Positions 7,266 to 33,354 of a stretch of 34,831 bases of DNA are shown in pieces. The position numbers and the translations under genes are program-made. Position 1 is the first letter of the stretch. Each line of letters starts with the position of its first letter. Origin of the DNA: Pseudomonadota bacterium (lineage in GTDB: Bacteria; Pseudomonadota; Gammaproteobacteria; Steroidobacterales; JBCBZW01); the NCBI GenBank assembly GCA_039815145.1, contig JBCBZW010000046.1, forward strand, positions 1 to 34,831. Reading direction: 5' to 3'. A model generated the notes under the pieces. It saw only the letters and a list, made by a program, of their open reading frames with translations. It was not told the origin of the DNA and ran no database searches.

Positions 7266-7874
7266 ATGCCCTTGCAGCTTCTGTACACGAGTGCCGCCTC
7301 GGCGCCGGTCACCGAGGCGGACGCCGCCCAGATACTCGCCACCTCGATCAGCAACAACCGTGAGCGCAACATCACCGGCGCGCTCTTGCACAGCGATCAT
7401 CACTTCGCCCAGCTGCTGGAGGGAGAGTTCGCCGAGGTGAACGCGCTCATGCGTCGAATCGCGGCGGATCCTCGCCACCACCGCTTCAAGCTCCTGCACT
7501 ACGCGACCGTGCCGACGCGCGCCTGTCGCGACTGGTCGATGCAGGACATCAACCACGACCCGGCCCTAAACCGGTTCCTCTTCGAGTGCAACGAACTGCT
7601 GGGCGACGGCGAGGCAGCAGCGCAAGCGCTGGGGCGTGTCCTGGTCGAAGCGCTGGCGCGACACGGTGCCGACCTCAGGCCGACCAAAGCCCTGGACCTC
7701 GGGGCGACGCCGGAGAGTGTGCGCCAGATCTTCAGGGCGGGAGGCGCCCCATACCCGTGGCGCGGTGGGGACGGGGCCGCGAGCGTCTCGCGGCCCCTGG
7801 TCCTTACATCTGGTAGTCGAGACCCAAGAACACGAAGCGACCGCGCGGGCTCACCGGGAAGGCAGCCTGGGTGA
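7266..7874 (+). CDS. BLUF-domain blue-light photoreceptor
   Basis: A 202-residue soluble protein; residues 1-95 are a BLUF domain that binds FAD. The photocycle residues align with AppA at constant offset: Tyr7 (AppA Y21), Asn31 (N45), Gln49 in FAQLLEG (Q63), Trp90 (W104) and Met92 (M106), so it should be photoactive. Residues about 96-150 are helical, as in stand-alone short BLUF proteins that act through partner proteins. The last 45 residues or so are low-complexity, rich in Gly, Arg and Ser, and are encoded across the terminator hairpin at 7773-7797 and 71 bp of the convergent TonB receptor gene. This tail may not be functionally important. AGAGG lies about 10 nt before the ATG. It stands alone; its output partner is not in the neighbourhood. 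Confidence 0.92.
   Translation: MPLQLLYTSAASAPVTEADAAQILATSISNNRERNITGALLHSDHHFAQLLEGEFAEVNALMRRIAADPRHHRFKLLHYATVPTRACRDWSMQDINHDPALNRFLFECNELLGDGEAAAQALGRVLVEALARHGADLRPTKALDLGATPESVRQIFRAGGAPYPWRGGDGAASVSRPLVLTSGSRDPRTRSDRAGSPGRQPG
7773..7797 (-). terminator. 11-bp hairpin downstream of the TonB receptor gene
   Basis: A perfect 11-bp GC-rich stem (7773-7783 with 7787-7797) with a 3-nt loop starts 6 bp past the stop of the leftward receptor gene. It lies inside the 3' coding end of the BLUF gene. There is no T-run on either strand, so efficiency as an intrinsic terminator is uncertain. Confidence 0.55.
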
Positions 7875-11686: not shown

Positions 11687-12286
11687 ATGCAGGTACGCGA
11701 AGCCACCACCGCAGCAGAACGTGAAGCCGTCTACCGCCTCCGCTACGAGGTGTACGTCAGCGAGATGGATCGACCGCAGCAATACGCCGACCACGAACGA
11801 CAACGGATCGCCGAACCGTTAGACGACACTGGCGTCGTCCTTTATGTGAGCACCGGCGAGAAGGTGGTGGGGACCGTACGGGGCAACTACTCCCGAGACG
11901 GCAGCCTGCGCGAGTACGAACTTCTATACCAAATGAAAAGAATAGCTTCTCATCCGAGCGACACCTCGATCACGACGAAGTTCATGGTGCATCCTGATCA
12001 CCGAGGAGGCCGTGCCGCCCTCGCACTGGCGACTGGCATCTACTGCTACGCGCTCCTCCATGGCATCCGCTTCAACGTGATGGACTGCAACCCACCGTTG
12101 GTGCGCTTCTTCGAAAGCCTCGGCTTCAAGACCTTCATCCCGGAGCTCGAGCACGAGGAGTACGGCAGCGTCGTCGGCATGATGCTCGACCTGCACGACG
12201 TGGAGCACTTCCGCGCGATCAGATCACCGTTTCTTTCACACTACGAGGCCTGGAGATCGAACCAGGCAAGCAAAGCCACCGCCTAA
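11687..12286 (+). CDS. FeeM-like GNAT acyltransferase (N-acyl amino acid synthase type)
   Basis: A 199-residue cytoplasmic protein in the group that links GNATs with autoinducer synthases. The N-terminal YRLRYEVYVSEMDRPQQYAD (residues 16-35) matches the R-x-R-Y-x-V-Y signature shared by FeeM N-acyltyrosine synthases, exosortase-associated acyltransferases and, loosely, LuxI. The GNAT acyl-donor loop is V101-x-P-x-x-R106-G-G-R-A, and the C-terminal strand-turn NPPLVRFFESLGF (135-147) is standard GNAT. Family members move a fatty acyl group from acyl-ACP or acyl-CoA to an amine. The next gene, a di-iron HDO enzyme, starts 14 nt or less after the stop, so they form one unit and likely one pathway. 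Other options are an acetyltransferase or an AHL-like signal synthase. No LuxR-type receptor is adjacent. Confidence 0.72.
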   Translation: MQVREATTAAEREAVYRLRYEVYVSEMDRPQQYADHERQRIAEPLDDTGVVLYVSTGEKVVGTVRGNYSRDGSLREYELLYQMKRIASHPSDTSITTKFMVHPDHRGGRAALALATGIYCYALLHGIRFNVMDCNPPLVRFFESLGFKTFIPELEHEEYGSVVGMMLDLHDVEHFRAIRSPFLSHYEAWRSNQASKATA

Positions 12287-12300
12287 GGGATATGATGACC

Positions 12301-13014
12301 ATGAGCTACCGACAACAACTCGAAGACGCTTTCTCCAACGTACTGGCCGAATTCAACGCCAGCCCCGGCATGCAGCGCCTGGCCAGCGGCGAGCTGGGCC
12401 TGGAGCACTACAAATCGTACCTGCGTCAGGTCTTTCATCACACCCGCGAGAACCCTCAACTCCAGGCGCTGGCCACCGTCTACTTCAAGGGTCATCAGCG
12501 CTCGGTGGTGAAGCGCTTCTTCAAGCACGCCACCTCGGAGATCGGCCACGATCAACTCGCCCTCAACGACATGGCAGCCCTCGGTGAGGACGTCGGCGCC
12601 ATCCCCGTCGAGAACCCCCTGCCTGCCACCAGCGCACTGCTCGCCTACGGCTTCTACCAGATCTACGTGAAGAACCCCGTGGGCTACCTGGGCTACCTGT
12701 ACTTCCTGGAGTTCACGCCGACGCAGAACGGCAGCGCCTACATGGGACAGCTGAGCGAACTCGGCGTGCCGACCGAGGCCCTGACCTTCCTCAAGGATCA
12801 CACCACGATCGATCAAGGCCACAACCGCCTCATGCACAGCTACCTGGACGATTTGGTCACGAGCAGCGATGACGTGCAGGTGATCGAGTACGCCATGCGC
12901 ACCACCGGTCACCTCTACGCGCGGATGGTCGAGGATGCCTTCCGCCACGCGGATGATCCGCGCAGCTACGGCGTGGCCGTCGACGAGCAGAAGTTCGCTC
13001 CGCCCACCGCCTGA
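12301..13014 (+). CDS. Heme-oxygenase-fold di-iron enzyme (HDO family)
   Basis: A 237-residue protein from the ATG at 12301. AAGGGA at 12285-12290 overlaps the previous stop and also allows ATG 12292 or 12295, which add two or three residues. It is all-helical with the HDO ligand set in order: E80-x2-H83 (SEIGHD), E137 (YFLEFTP), and H167-x3-D171-x2-H174 (DHTTIDQGH). The same Hx3Dx2H pattern and helix order occur in UndA, CADD and related 'iron-containing redox enzymes' that use Fe(II)/O2 to cleave or oxidise fatty acids, amino acids and aromatics. Lacking the proximal-His context for heme, it is probably non-heme. The tight link with the acyltransferase suggests it oxidises or fragments an acylated product or its precursor. 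The reaction is unknown. Confidence 0.8.
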   Translation: MSYRQQLEDAFSNVLAEFNASPGMQRLASGELGLEHYKSYLRQVFHHTRENPQLQALATVYFKGHQRSVVKRFFKHATSEIGHDQLALNDMAALGEDVGAIPVENPLPATSALLAYGFYQIYVKNPVGYLGYLYFLEFTPTQNGSAYMGQLSELGVPTEALTFLKDHTTIDQGHNRLMHSYLDDLVTSSDDVQVIEYAMRTTGHLYARMVEDAFRHADDPRSYGVAVDEQKFAPPTA

Positions 13015-13021
13015 GGGATGC

Positions 13022-13053
13022 GGGGAGGAGCCCAGACCTGAGGGCTCCTCCCC
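13022..13053 (+). terminator. 12-bp hairpin after the acyltransferase-HDO unit
   Basis: A perfect 12-bp inverted repeat (13022-13033 with 13042-13053) with an 8-nt loop begins 7 bp after the HDO stop. There is no good T-run after it, but position and stem strength make it the likely transcript end. It separates this unit from the S10 peptidase gene. Confidence 0.65.
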
Positions 13054-30559: not shown

Positions 30560-32131
30560 GTGCAGAGCACGACACCTCAGCGAGACGCGCGGCCGCTGTC
30601 GCGACAGGAGACCTGGTTGGCGCTGGCGGCCTACGGCGTCACGTTATTCCTCGTCATCGTCTTGTCGTTTCAGGTCGGCTTCGCCACCAACTCGGTGGTG
30701 GCGGTGTGGCCGGCCTCCGGCATTGCCACCTGCGCCGCCCTGCAGTACGGCTGGCGGGCTTTCCTGCCCATCTTGCTGAGCGGTATGGCGTACTCCTTCC
30801 TCTTCTTGCCCGAAGTGCCCGCGGGGCTCTTCGTGTCGACCAGTGTGGGCAACGGGGTCGCCGTGTGCAGCGCCGTGGCGGCCTACCGGCTGCTGGGCGG
30901 GCCGGCCGCCCCGTTTTCGAACGTGGGCGCGGTGCTCCTGGTCATGGGCGTGCTGGCGGCAGGCCATAGCGTCATCGCTGCGTCGGTGGGAGCTGGCGCC
31001 GTCGGCGTGTACATGTGGCTGCCCTGGTCGGATACCTGGACGCTCTGGTGGCGTTGGTTCTTCTCCGACTTCACCGGCGTGGTGTTGGTGTTGCCCGCCG
31101 CCGTGGCGCTGGTGCCCCACGTGAGCGCACCTCTCAAGATGGTACGTCGCGCGTTTGCCGGCCGAGACCGCGCCCTGGCGCTGTTAGCCTCCGCTTCGAT
31201 GGCGGCGGTGCTGGTGGCGGCGGCCGAGCTGTTCCCGGGGCAGTCCAGTGCGTACACACTGGTGTTGCTCACGATGCCCTTGTGCACATGGCTGGCGTTT
31301 CGCGCGGATACCACCGGCGCGATGGTGCTCCTCTCCGCCACCATCACGGTGGCCCTGGTGCAGGCCCTGATGCGCGTGGGCACGCCAACCGACGAGGTGT
31401 TCCTCACGGTGCAGCTCTACGGCATGATCGTGATGTGCACCAGCCTGGTCATTCACGCCGGCGCCAACGAACGGCGCAAGGCAGTCCGCGCGTTAGCCCA
31501 GGAGCGCGCCAACCTGGAGGCCACCGTCGCCTCGCGCACGGCGGAGCTGCGCGACCAGGTCATCGCCTACCGCCAGATCAAGCGCGAACTGGAATCCCTG
31601 GTGAAGAAGGATCCGCTGACGGGCATCGCAAACCGGCGGGCGTTCCTGGAACGCGGCGAGCAGGAGGTGCGCCGTCACCAGCGCACCGGTGAGGCCCTCA
31701 GCCTGATCATGGTGGACATCGATCACTTCAAGAGCATCAACGACAGCTGCGGCCATGCGGTGGGCGATCAGGTGATCGTCAGTGTGGCCAAGTGTCTCGC
31801 CGAGACTTTGCGTGCCGGCACGGACATGGCGGCCAGGATCGGCGGCGAGGAGTTTGCGTGCCTGTTGGGCAACACCGATCGCACCGCCGCCCTGGCCACG
31901 GCCGAACGCCTGCGCGTCGCGGTGGAGGGCTTGGAAGTGCCTACGGATCGGCGCGTACTGCGCATCACGGCGAGCTTTGGCGCGTGCACGCTCAGCCGCT
32001 CGCGGGCCGACCTCGAGGGATTGCTGCTCGGCGCTGATGATGCGCTCTACGCCGCGAAGCGTGCCGGTCGCAACTGCGTCTACGACCTGCACGGTGGCGC
32101 CCCGACGGTGGAGCTGAAGGCAAGTCGCTAG
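30560..32131 (+). CDS. MASE1-GGDEF diguanylate cyclase
   Basis: A 523-residue inner-membrane protein. The start is a GTG with AAGG 4 nt upstream; there is no ATG until residue 76. Residues about 17-300 hold eight or so hydrophobic helices of a MASE1 sensor (WPASGIA near 50, WWRWFFSDFTGVVLVLP at 163-179). A coiled coil follows (about 303-348, ERANLEATVASRTAELRDQV). The GGDEF domain runs from KKDPLTGIANRRAF (349-362) to about 510, with the active site RIGGEEF (426-432) intact. The allosteric I-site is not a proper R-x-x-D: R418 is one residue too far from D422. It should make c-di-GMP with little product inhibition. The sensed signal is unknown. It converges with the TIR gene. Confidence 0.9.
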   Translation: MQSTTPQRDARPLSRQETWLALAAYGVTLFLVIVLSFQVGFATNSVVAVWPASGIATCAALQYGWRAFLPILLSGMAYSFLFLPEVPAGLFVSTSVGNGVAVCSAVAAYRLLGGPAAPFSNVGAVLLVMGVLAAGHSVIAASVGAGAVGVYMWLPWSDTWTLWWRWFFSDFTGVVLVLPAAVALVPHVSAPLKMVRRAFAGRDRALALLASASMAAVLVAAAELFPGQSSAYTLVLLTMPLCTWLAFRADTTGAMVLLSATITVALVQALMRVGTPTDEVFLTVQLYGMIVMCTSLVIHAGANERRKAVRALAQERANLEATVASRTAELRDQVIAYRQIKRELESLVKKDPLTGIANRRAFLERGEQEVRRHQRTGEALSLIMVDIDHFKSINDSCGHAVGDQVIVSVAKCLAETLRAGTDMAARIGGEEFACLLGNTDRTAALATAERLRVAVEGLEVPTDRRVLRITASFGACTLSRSRADLEGLLLGADDALYAAKRAGRNCVYDLHGGAPTVELKASR

Positions 32132-32172: not shown

Positions 32173-33105
32173 CTAGTCGTCCAGATCATCATCGATCTCG
32201 TGTAGAAACGGTCGCGCGCGTTGCAGCATCAGCGTCAAGCGTACGATGAGATCGTCGGCTCGCGTCCAGTCGAAGCGATCGCCCTGCGCCGTCGATATCA
32301 GATCGACGCCCCACCCGAGCGCGAACTGCCGTTCGATGAAGTACTCGCTGGTGATGAACGCCTGCACGTCGGGGTCATCGCTGGTGCTGAGCGTGAAACT
32401 CGGATCGACCCGAGCGAACATGGAGTGGCGCAGGAGCCACGACGGGTAGTCGCTCAGGTCGTACTCGTAGCGCCCGCCGCCGCGATGGCTCACGCGCCAG
32501 TCGAGGTCATCCTCCAGCATCTCATCCTCCAGGTCGAAGGACAGGTGCGCCGTCGCGCCCAGACGTTCGTCGAGAAGCCACAGGGTGACCGCCCCCTCGA
32601 AGAGCACGGAGGCGAGCATATCCGGGATCTCCTTCATCTTGACCACCGTGCTTCGACGACTGAGCTGAAACCTCCGCTCCTCGGCCAACCAGTCCAGCAG
32701 CGACCGCCCGAGGGCCGCCGTGTTGGGGCTCATCATCACGGTGACGTTGAGGGGCACCGGTCGTCCCTCGTCTAGGCGGAGTCCCTTTGCTCCCGGATCG
32801 TAGGCGAACACGTGGCGGCCGGTGCGGCGGGCGTAATCGCGCTCGAAGTTGACCCAGAGGGAGTCGGCTGACGCTCCTCGCTCGAGGTAGATCAGGCCGT
32901 CGCAAGCGAGAATTCTCTCGACGATACCGTTGCTAACGGCGGCATCAGGATCCGGCTCCTGGCGCGGAAAGACCTCGGGCCTCACATGCGGCGCACGCTC
33001 GTTCAGGGTAGCGACCAACGACGCCACCGTCTCCTCATCGGCGTACGCATGGGAGATGAATACTGACTGCGGTAAGGAGTTCCAATCGATGCCGAGCATT
33101 GCCAT
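32173..33105 (-). CDS. TIR-domain protein with uncharacterised C-terminus
   Basis: A 310-residue cytoplasmic protein from the ATG at 33105-33103, with AGGG 6 nt upstream; a second ATG two codons on is possible. Residues about 12-105 are a TIR_2-type domain: SVFISHAYADEE (14-25), a second strand EVFPRQEPDPDAA, ERILACDGLIYLERGASAD (63-81), and the W84-x3-E88 motif where the catalytic glutamate of NAD-cleaving TIRs sits. Residues about 150-310 are acidic, mixed alpha/beta, with WRVSHRGGGRYEYDLSDYPSW and a terminal helix ending EIDDDLDD; I recognise no domain there. Bacterial TIR proteins act as NADases in phage defence or as virulence factors. No partner defence gene is adjacent. It diverges from the SDR gene (249 bp). 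Confidence 0.75.
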   Translation of the reverse strand: MAMLGIDWNSLPQSVFISHAYADEETVASLVATLNERAPHVRPEVFPRQEPDPDAAVSNGIVERILACDGLIYLERGASADSLWVNFERDYARRTGRHVFAYDPGAKGLRLDEGRPVPLNVTVMMSPNTAALGRSLLDWLAEERRFQLSRRSTVVKMKEIPDMLASVLFEGAVTLWLLDERLGATAHLSFDLEDEMLEDDLDWRVSHRGGGRYEYDLSDYPSWLLRHSMFARVDPSFTLSTSDDPDVQAFITSEYFIERQFALGWGVDLISTAQGDRFDWTRADDLIVRLTLMLQRARPFLHEIDDDLDD

Positions 33106-33354
33106 CACGCACCCTACCGTGACCTGCCTCACGACGGTAGCCGCAGATCCCCAAAGTGAGCAAGTGCCGCCTCGGGCAGGCACCCCCTTGAAACCGCTGA
33201 CGGGCGGCCAGAACTCCCGCGGTCTACCCCGCCGTTACGCGTGGCAGCAATGGGATCGCGCCGCGGCGGTAACGTTTCTCGGCGAGGGGAAACAACACGT
33301 CATCTGGCCGTACAGCACAACCGCTCGGCCGTCAGTACTTTGAGGAATAAGCTA

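Follow-up and report, generated by a model that had tools for sequence, protein, structure and literature searches.

A conserved pair of genes for a FeeM-type acyltransferase and a heme-oxygenase-like di-iron enzyme points to a possible two-step route to a small lipid

The two-gene locus

The stretch of DNA analysed here, 34,831 nucleotides of contig JBCBZW010000046.1 (assembly GCA_039815145.1, a gammaproteobacterium of the order Steroidobacterales) and referred to as the window, carries two adjoining genes for a FeeM-type acyltransferase and a heme-oxygenase-like di-iron oxidase/oxygenase (HDO). Together they form a conserved two-gene unit that recurs in several bacterial lineages. The features of the locus are the following:

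11687..12286, + strand: FeeM-type (N-acyl amino acid synthase-like) GNAT acyltransferase, 199 amino acids (aa), assigned by PF21926, predicted structure and Foldseek
12287..12291, + strand: junction between acyltransferase and HDO, 5 nt, or 14 nt with the third in-frame ATG (12301) as HDO start
12292..13014, + strand: HDO, 240 aa, assigned by PF14518 and by sequence and fold matches
12526..12528, + strand: codon of His79 of the HDO, aligned with Tyr82 of MboA
12538..12549, + strand: predicted metal ligands E83 and H86 (E-x2-H), invariant in the 14-sequence HDO alignment
12709..12711, + strand: predicted ligand E140, invariant in the same alignment
12799..12822, + strand: predicted ligands H170, D174 and H177 (H-x3-D-x2-H), invariant in the same alignment
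13022..13053, + strand: GC hairpin of 12 bp 3' of the HDO gene, folding z -3.0, no T-tract

A preliminary description of this DNA had read the first gene as a FeeM-like member of the GNAT and autoinducer-synthase-like proteins, followed by a junction of at most 14 nt, an HDO with a complete E-x2-H / E / Hx3Dx2H ligand set and a strong hairpin, and each of these was recovered. In the sister species (G375; genomes and loci are given by G and L numbers) the gap between the two genes is 8 nt, and the HDO gene is likewise followed by a GC-rich hairpin, similar to that of the window with a changed loop. The stem in the window pairs 13022-13033 with 13042-13053, and none of 200 shuffles of the 66-nt hairpin stretch was equally stable. 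The terminator scan did not call the hairpin, which is a possible terminator or mRNA-stabilising element. Nonsynonymous and synonymous divergence (dN and dS) between the window species and G375 are 0.128 and 0.801 for the acyltransferase and 0.041 and 0.813 for the HDO, which indicates purifying selection on both genes. A DNA search found the pair as a single copy in the 6.0-Mb genome.

Families, folds and metal site

The acyltransferase of the window matches the Pfam family PF21926 (FeeM) with 51.5 bits (cut-off 27), and its structure model has a predicted local distance difference test score (pLDDT) of 92.5. The top Foldseek matches of this model were BjaI, RpaI, MesI, TofI and FeeM (2g0b), while VIA-align returned Z scores of 18.3 over 142 residues for the plain GNAT SACOL1063, 17.5 over 167 residues for FeeM and 17.3 over 173 residues for TofI. 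The protein matches the FeeM profile and has the same fold, with about 16% identity in the structural alignment. When the acyltransferase alignment was used as a profile against the PDB, nothing matched well (best E 0.0076); in PHROGs the acyltransferase weakly matches acetyltransferases, and the HDO is without a match. The fee cluster of FeeM itself is not known to contain an HDO.

For the HDO, the match to PF14518 (Haem_oxygenas_2) amounts to 63.2 bits (cut-off 28.9). By sequence the protein matches 3dde (3.4e-21) and MboA (4.1e-6), and a profile of the HDO family retrieved from the PDB, at E <= 1, only 3dde (2.4e-28), MboA (2.9e-9) and, weakly, BesC (0.031). UndA was absent from that search and is a match by fold only; the structure model (pLDDT 87.3) aligns with 3dde at Z 25.9, with CADD at 24.2, with HrmI at 21.3 and with UndA at 20.4. 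Against TIGR04305, the model of the CADD subfamily, the HDO scores 26.3 bits and stays below the cut-off of 200. Of the characterised enzymes with a solved structure, MboA matches best by sequence, and UndA and CADD are fold relatives.

The six ligands are invariant in all 14 aligned HDOs and align with E86, H89, E143, H172, D176 and H181 of MboA (PMC13185094); the window HDO has a predicted 3-His/3-carboxylate di-iron site that is intact. A site of this type is also described for UndA and CADD (PMC13108848). All six ligands are present in 28 of 29 core paired HDOs that could be read and in 8/8 of two other paired HDO types, counts from which L174 was left out, its HDO being intact by eye. The ligand-broken core HDO (L125, genome G802) stands beside a weak acyltransferase with 54 bits to our own model, in a scanned stretch without a Pfam match. 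Three ligand positions are changed in the only unpaired core HDO among those read (L175, on contig 57 of G771).

Linkage of the two genes across genomes

Peptide patterns derived from the HDO alignment were run against 84,980 genomes and found 14 loci in Alphaproteobacteria, Bacteriovorax and, as one fragment, Acidobacteria, and a FeeM-type gene directly adjoins the HDO in all 13 full-length loci. The acidobacterial locus (L060) holds only part of an HDO, and no acyltransferase is visible there; HDO matches occurred in 2 of 179 acidobacterial genomes, and the three loci examined there held no acyltransferase. In the Parvularculaceae (the family of Amphiplicatus) 22 of 62 genomes carry the HDO subfamily (at least 317 bits), each with an adjacent acyltransferase (22/22), including 11 carriers outside the query alignment. 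Three distant HDOs of the same family (at most 69 bits) have no adjacent acyltransferase. Within the order of the window, three of 97 genomes have the acyltransferase (that of the window, G375 and G372), and in all three the HDO lies beside it.

Broader surveys covered whole classes. Among 289 alphaproteobacterial genomes, 14 have the HDO and 18 a strong acyltransferase match (E <= 1e-10); both occur in 5, as compared with about 0.9 under independence, and they are adjacent in 4, or in 3 without G464, which was the sample centre picked for its pair. In the class of the window (369 genomes) the HDO search matched 38 genomes and the acyltransferase search 12; flanks were inspected for 30 of 41 HDO places, and the other 11 were judged from match lists. 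The two surveys together gave 43 HDO loci regardless of subfamily, and the five of these with an acyltransferase all group with the paired HDOs in the tree. In the Bdellovibrionota 58 of 173 genomes had any match, and adjacency was read at 16 places (15 loci and G771 contig 57). Here the acyltransferase accompanies 4/5 HDOs of at least 254 bits (the one in G802 being weak, next to the ligand-broken HDO), a FeeM-type protein with a PilZ match accompanies 4/6 HDOs of 154-243 bits, and 0/5 HDOs of at most 120 bits have an acyltransferase.

The arrangement of the two genes differs between loci. The acyltransferase comes first in the window, G375, G372, L052 and L059, with a 14-nt overlap of the two genes in L059; six loci have both genes on one strand with the HDO leading, and five are convergent. 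This variation argues that the linkage does not go back to one frozen insertion. Viral contigs, scanned with the HDO patterns only, gave 73 pattern matches, none related to the HDO. Plasmids gave one weak acyltransferase match and 51 records with an HDO match; among the matches listed, 8/20 name an AMP-ligase and/or a short-chain dehydrogenase/reductase (SDR) feature under the match.

Both families are large and common, which would favour chance neighbours or the hitch-hiking of unrelated genes. The complete adjacency in 13/13 and 22/22 loci, the varied arrangements, the two or more flanking contexts in a single family and the position of the five surveyed pairs in the HDO tree make such an explanation hardly credible, and chance adjacency was rejected on the adjacency counts and the grouping of paired HDOs. 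The acyltransferase and the HDO are a conserved two-gene unit, as the preliminary description had supposed. The two partners differ in pace: over 120 pairs from 16 loci, median identity is 58% for the HDO versus 33% for the acyltransferase, which is the lower of the two in 117/120.

HDO relatives without the acyltransferase

The unpaired relatives compared with the paired HDOs were 36 loci, 28 from the class survey and 8 from the alphaproteobacterial survey, with flanks of about 1.5 kb; the weak alphaproteobacterial matches L120 and L121 and the unpaired HDOs in L129, L131-L139 and L161-L163 lie outside this set. An AMP-ligase stands beside 33 of the 36, an SDR beside 34 and at least one of them beside 34, whereas neither occurs in the flanks of the paired loci (0/34). 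When 21 paired HDOs and the same number of others were placed in one tree, the two groups separated with support of 97/93, with a bootstrap that had not settled. This tree took 21 of the 28 class loci (without L010, L014, L015, L017, L025, L027 and L028). The G114 pair (L065) was not counted as a pair and was kept as a row of the paired group in two of the trees. From the split of the tree and the contrast in neighbours it follows that members of this HDO clan occur mainly in one of two contexts, either with an AMP-ligase and an SDR or with a FeeM-type acyltransferase.

The two contexts also differ at position 79, where MboA has Tyr82, its proposed catalytic base (PMC13185094). All 37 readable paired HDOs have His, and 34 of the 36 unpaired relatives have Tyr. 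The exceptions, L015 with His and L017 with Asp, are the same two that are without the AMP-ligase/SDR context. The AMP-ligase/HDO/SDR operons are in the samples taken the sister group of the paired HDOs, but they contain no acyltransferase and have Tyr at position 79 in all 34. They, too, probably activate a carboxylic acid next to the HDO.

These operons were seen at L003-L014, L016, L018-L020, L022-L031, L110, L111, L113 and L115-L119. At L113 and L118 a single long open frame takes in the HDO and genes of the group.

Acyltransferase types and domain fusions

In the 22 loci of Parvularculaceae (L047-L051, L053-L058, L164-L174) the acyltransferases fall into two divergent groups that coincide exactly with gene orientation, 10 convergent and 12 co-directional, with one change on the acyltransferase tree (support 91/93), in which L174 is a long branch. 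Across eight loci, acyltransferase identity is 46-87% within and 30-39% between the types. HDO identity in these loci is 54-85% and that of the flanking FtsK 74-91%, and neither splits by type. The orientation label can be explained with a single change on the acyltransferase tree; the trees of the HDO and of a kinase-like neighbour need at least 4 each and that of FtsK at least 6. A single clade was rejected by the approximately unbiased (AU) test for the HDO (p 6e-13), the kinase-like neighbour (p 4e-4) and FtsK (p 3e-41), the latter two trees being quick searches and the FtsK tree covering 16 loci; an earlier, smaller test of type exchange with 15 HDOs was weaker (AU p 0.037). The label changes on the HDO and neighbour trees indicate that acyltransferase types have repeatedly been exchanged or differentially lost while the HDO stayed.

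The kinase-like gene is a divergent membrane protein gene that adjoins the HDO in all 22 Parvularculaceae loci. Its ATPase domain is below the Pfam cut-off in 3/4 proteins scanned. We considered it as a type-specific receptor and rejected this, because its membrane part and the acyltransferase type do not go together (21 rows, 3 changes, one clade rejected by the AU test).

Several acyltransferases are fused to additional domains. Five paired ones (L052, L063, L079, L081 and L083) carry a C-terminal cyclic-nucleotide-binding domain, which is also present in 6/6 scanned relatives without an HDO (L064, L080, L085, L087, L088 and L091). In the Bdellovibrionota loci L176-L179 the immediate neighbour of the HDO is a FeeM-type protein of 462-497 aa with an N-terminal PilZ match, above the Pfam cut-off in three cases and below it in L178. 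These four acyltransferases are candidates for control by cyclic di-GMP, and the fused proteins in general suggest second-messenger regulation of the acyltransferase in those lineages.

It is conceivable, and we hold it as a tentative possibility on the unlikely side, that the product serves as a signal between or within cells, a quorum-type lipid whose synthesis would be tuned by second messengers in some lineages. This role is compatible with the two-step route discussed below. The lead of acyl-homoserine-lactone synthases among the Foldseek matches, the five cyclic-nucleotide-binding and four PilZ fusions (one of the latter sub-cut-off), the two acyltransferase types alternating beside a constant HDO and the kinase-like gene at 22/22 loci all point in that direction. 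However, the membrane part of the kinase-like protein does not track the acyltransferase type, and its ATPase domain is sub-cut-off in 3/4 proteins scanned; the cyclic-nucleotide-binding domain is not specific to the pair, and the window neighbours scanned included no LuxR-type or kinase gene. A more specific version, in which the pair would be a diversifying signal system with an oxidised N-acyl amino acid as messenger and its identity set by exchangeable acyltransferase types, we regard as doubtful. In that version the types alternating beside a constant HDO would be comparable to idiomorphs or pherotypes, and the cyclic-nucleotide-binding and PilZ fusions would place messenger synthesis under second-messenger control.

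The fused acyltransferase of the cyclic-nucleotide type at L091 lies beside a Rieske ring-hydroxylating oxygenase and is possibly part of another pair that acylates and then oxidises.

Surrounding genes

In the window, a TonB receptor lies upstream of the pair and an S10 peptidase is the next gene downstream. Among the 22 loci compared these flanks are common only to the window and G375, so the TonB receptor and the S10 peptidase are probably not members of the unit. A Pfam scan of the window neighbours found neither a nitroreductase nor a ThiF cyclase, and the neighbours scanned likewise included no dedicated reductase. The only nitroreductase-family gene met beside a pair, among the part of the neighbours scanned, is a SagB-like dehydrogenase gene (L062, 11383-12666; TIGR04511, above the cut-off), which precedes the G372 pair by about 200 bp on the same strand.

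The recurring annotated neighbours of paired loci are the kinase-like gene, Coq4, FtsK and an ammonium transporter. These neighbours bear on the idea that the HDO protects against stress by handling iron or reactive oxygen, with the acyltransferase as a lipid-repair partner. DtpC, a protein with an HDO domain, does limit desiccation-induced oxidative damage (PMC13232832), but it is co-transcribed with a catalase gene (PMC13232832), for which the annotated neighbours listed here offer no parallel, and we judge a protective role to be very unlikely.

Further observations concern single loci. At L068 (8793-10973, genome G004) a FeeM-type acyltransferase gene directly follows a gene with FabD-helical-insert and NMO matches, with large open reading frames around it. 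We take the latter gene to fit a PfaD-like reductase associated with polyketide synthases. On the contig of the pair itself, 30560-32131 encodes a MASE1-GGDEF diguanylate cyclase, 7266-7874 a BLUF blue-light sensor and 32173-33183 a protein with a sub-cut-off TIR_2 match (25 bits, cut-off 28).

Discussion

From the families, the metal site and the linkage described above we infer a substrate, an order of steps, a product and a role. In the reading that we favour, and to which as a whole we would give about even chances, the HDO oxidises the amino-acid part of an N-acyl amino acid supplied by the acyltransferase. In a first step, suggested by the family of the acyltransferase, an amino acid would receive a fatty acyl group from acyl-ACP (acyl carrier protein) or acyl-CoA, and the resulting N-acyl amino acid would keep its carboxylate free. 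In a second step, modelled on the closest HDOs, this carboxylate would be bound at Fe1 of the di-iron site and O2 would be used. The amino-acid part would then lose either two electrons and two protons (desaturation) or the carboxylate, with formation of an olefin (an ene-amide). Given that neither a ThiF cyclase nor a dedicated reductase was found among the scanned window neighbours, the product is probably linear, namely a linear unsaturated N-acyl amino acid or N-acyl ene-amide. The constancy of the HDO next to a faster-evolving acyltransferase suggests that the head-group reaction is fixed and that the molecules differ in their acyl chain or amino acid.

The sequence of acylation and oxidation has precedents. 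TyzA, TrzA and OxzA acylate amino acids, which are subsequently desaturated by a flavin oxidase (PMC10404671; PMC12856293), and these published pathways with the same logic make the order proposed here plausible. The OxzAB, TyzABC and TrzAS systems share with our pair an acyltransferase of the FeeM/LuxI fold and a co-encoded O2-dependent oxidase in a unit of two or three genes (PMC10404671; PMC12856293), but their oxidase is a flavin enzyme of the nitroreductase type, accompanied by a ThiF cyclase, instead of a di-iron HDO. Our hypothesis is that the pair is the iron counterpart of these flavin-based pathways, a chemistry for which the precedent is good. An AurF-like di-iron enzyme, which is not an HDO, has been proposed to hydroxylate N-acyl threonine in the lipothrenins (PMC10616846). 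What the preliminary description had put forward, namely that an amine is acylated and then oxidised or fragmented, is plausible by the flavin-based precedent.

MboA of the mangotoxin pathway is the nearest guide to the second step. It desaturates the C-terminal residue of a peptide with the carboxylate on Fe1 (PMC13185094), and Fe1 carries the substrate as a ligand in MboA, UndA, AetD, HrmI and PolF (PMC13108848; PMC13185094). MboA has the same six ligands and the E-x2-H-D motif, and its substrate is an N-blocked residue with a free carboxylate. In contrast to the pathway proposed here, this substrate is a tripeptide that ATP-grasp ligases assemble, MboB serves as redox partner, and Tyr82 takes the place of His79. 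The description of the mangotoxin cluster available to us covers five enzymes, none of them named as an acyltransferase, and it mentions VarO as similar to MboA (PMC13185094).

A number of observations weigh against the favoured reading. The likeness of the HDO to MboA is remote, and the proposed base of MboA is replaced by His. By the VIA-align Z score the acyltransferase ties with a plain GNAT, although the alignments with proteins of the signal-synthase type are longer. For most loci the term FeeM-type refers to our own family models and not to Pfam; with Pfam, the paired acyltransferase of L059 is below the FeeM cut-off, and those of L081 and L125 are unmatched by FeeM. In 14 of the 18 alphaproteobacterial genomes with a strong acyltransferase match the 1.5-kb flanks are without an HDO, and one of these 14 acyltransferases adjoins a Rieske oxygenase. 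The concern of the preliminary description that orthologues of the two genes might rarely be neighbours is dispelled for close orthologues of the HDO, but on the side of the acyltransferase the association is looser. In the class of the window, clear adjacency to an HDO was found in 2/12 genomes with an acyltransferase match. In G114 (L065) the neighbour is HDO-like, below the Pfam cut-off, lacks the D174 ligand and has Phe at position 79. Among the core copies of the Bdellovibrionota, 1/5 (G771 contig 57) is without an acyltransferase. Finally, many loci are HDO-first or convergent, and gene order is therefore silent on the order of the reactions; the HDO could instead act on the acyl chain or on a free amino acid.

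The last of these options amounts to a reversed order, in which the HDO would first oxidise a free amino acid, as BesC, PolF and HrmI do, and the acyltransferase would then acylate the product. Characterised HDOs act mostly on fatty or amino acids (PMC13108848), the HDO gene comes first in many loci, and BesC is the weak third match of the family profile. On the other hand, MboA, the best-matching characterised HDO, acts on a C-terminal and hence N-acylated residue of a peptide (PMC13185094), and N-acylation precedes oxidation in the flavin analogues (PMC10404671; PMC12856293). We consider the reversed order rather unlikely. Less probable still is a UndA-like action on the fatty acyl part, by which the HDO would supply or trim the acyl chain of the product. 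The fold is that of UndA (Z 20.4), an enzyme acting on fatty acids (PMC13108848), but UndA is missed by sequence even with the family profile, and a variable acyltransferase beside a constant HDO better fits a constant head group.

Returning to the favoured route, in which an N-acyl amino acid is formed and then oxidised at its head group, no paper among those listed by searches of the open-licence literature in PubMed Central (PMC) describes a pair of acyltransferase and HDO in its title and abstract, in line with the preliminary description; subscription papers and preprints outside PMC lie beyond this scope. The words acyltransferase and N-acyl are absent from a review of the HDOs (PMC13108848). 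These searches thus brought up no account of the pair, and one may exist elsewhere.

For the HDO family, about a dozen members have an assigned function among more than 10,000 sequences (PMC13108848). A minimal pair whose acyltransferase type is known, whose metal site is intact and which occurs in several related genomes offers a directly testable path to a new HDO reaction, and a signalling role deserves testing in view of the alternating types and the fusions with second-messenger domains. The pair points towards a two-step synthesis, undescribed as far as the searches reach, of a small lipid that may be a signal. If this holds true, its product would represent a new class of bacterial N-acyl lipid, and the logic of acylating first and then oxidising with O2 would have arisen with iron as well as with flavin.

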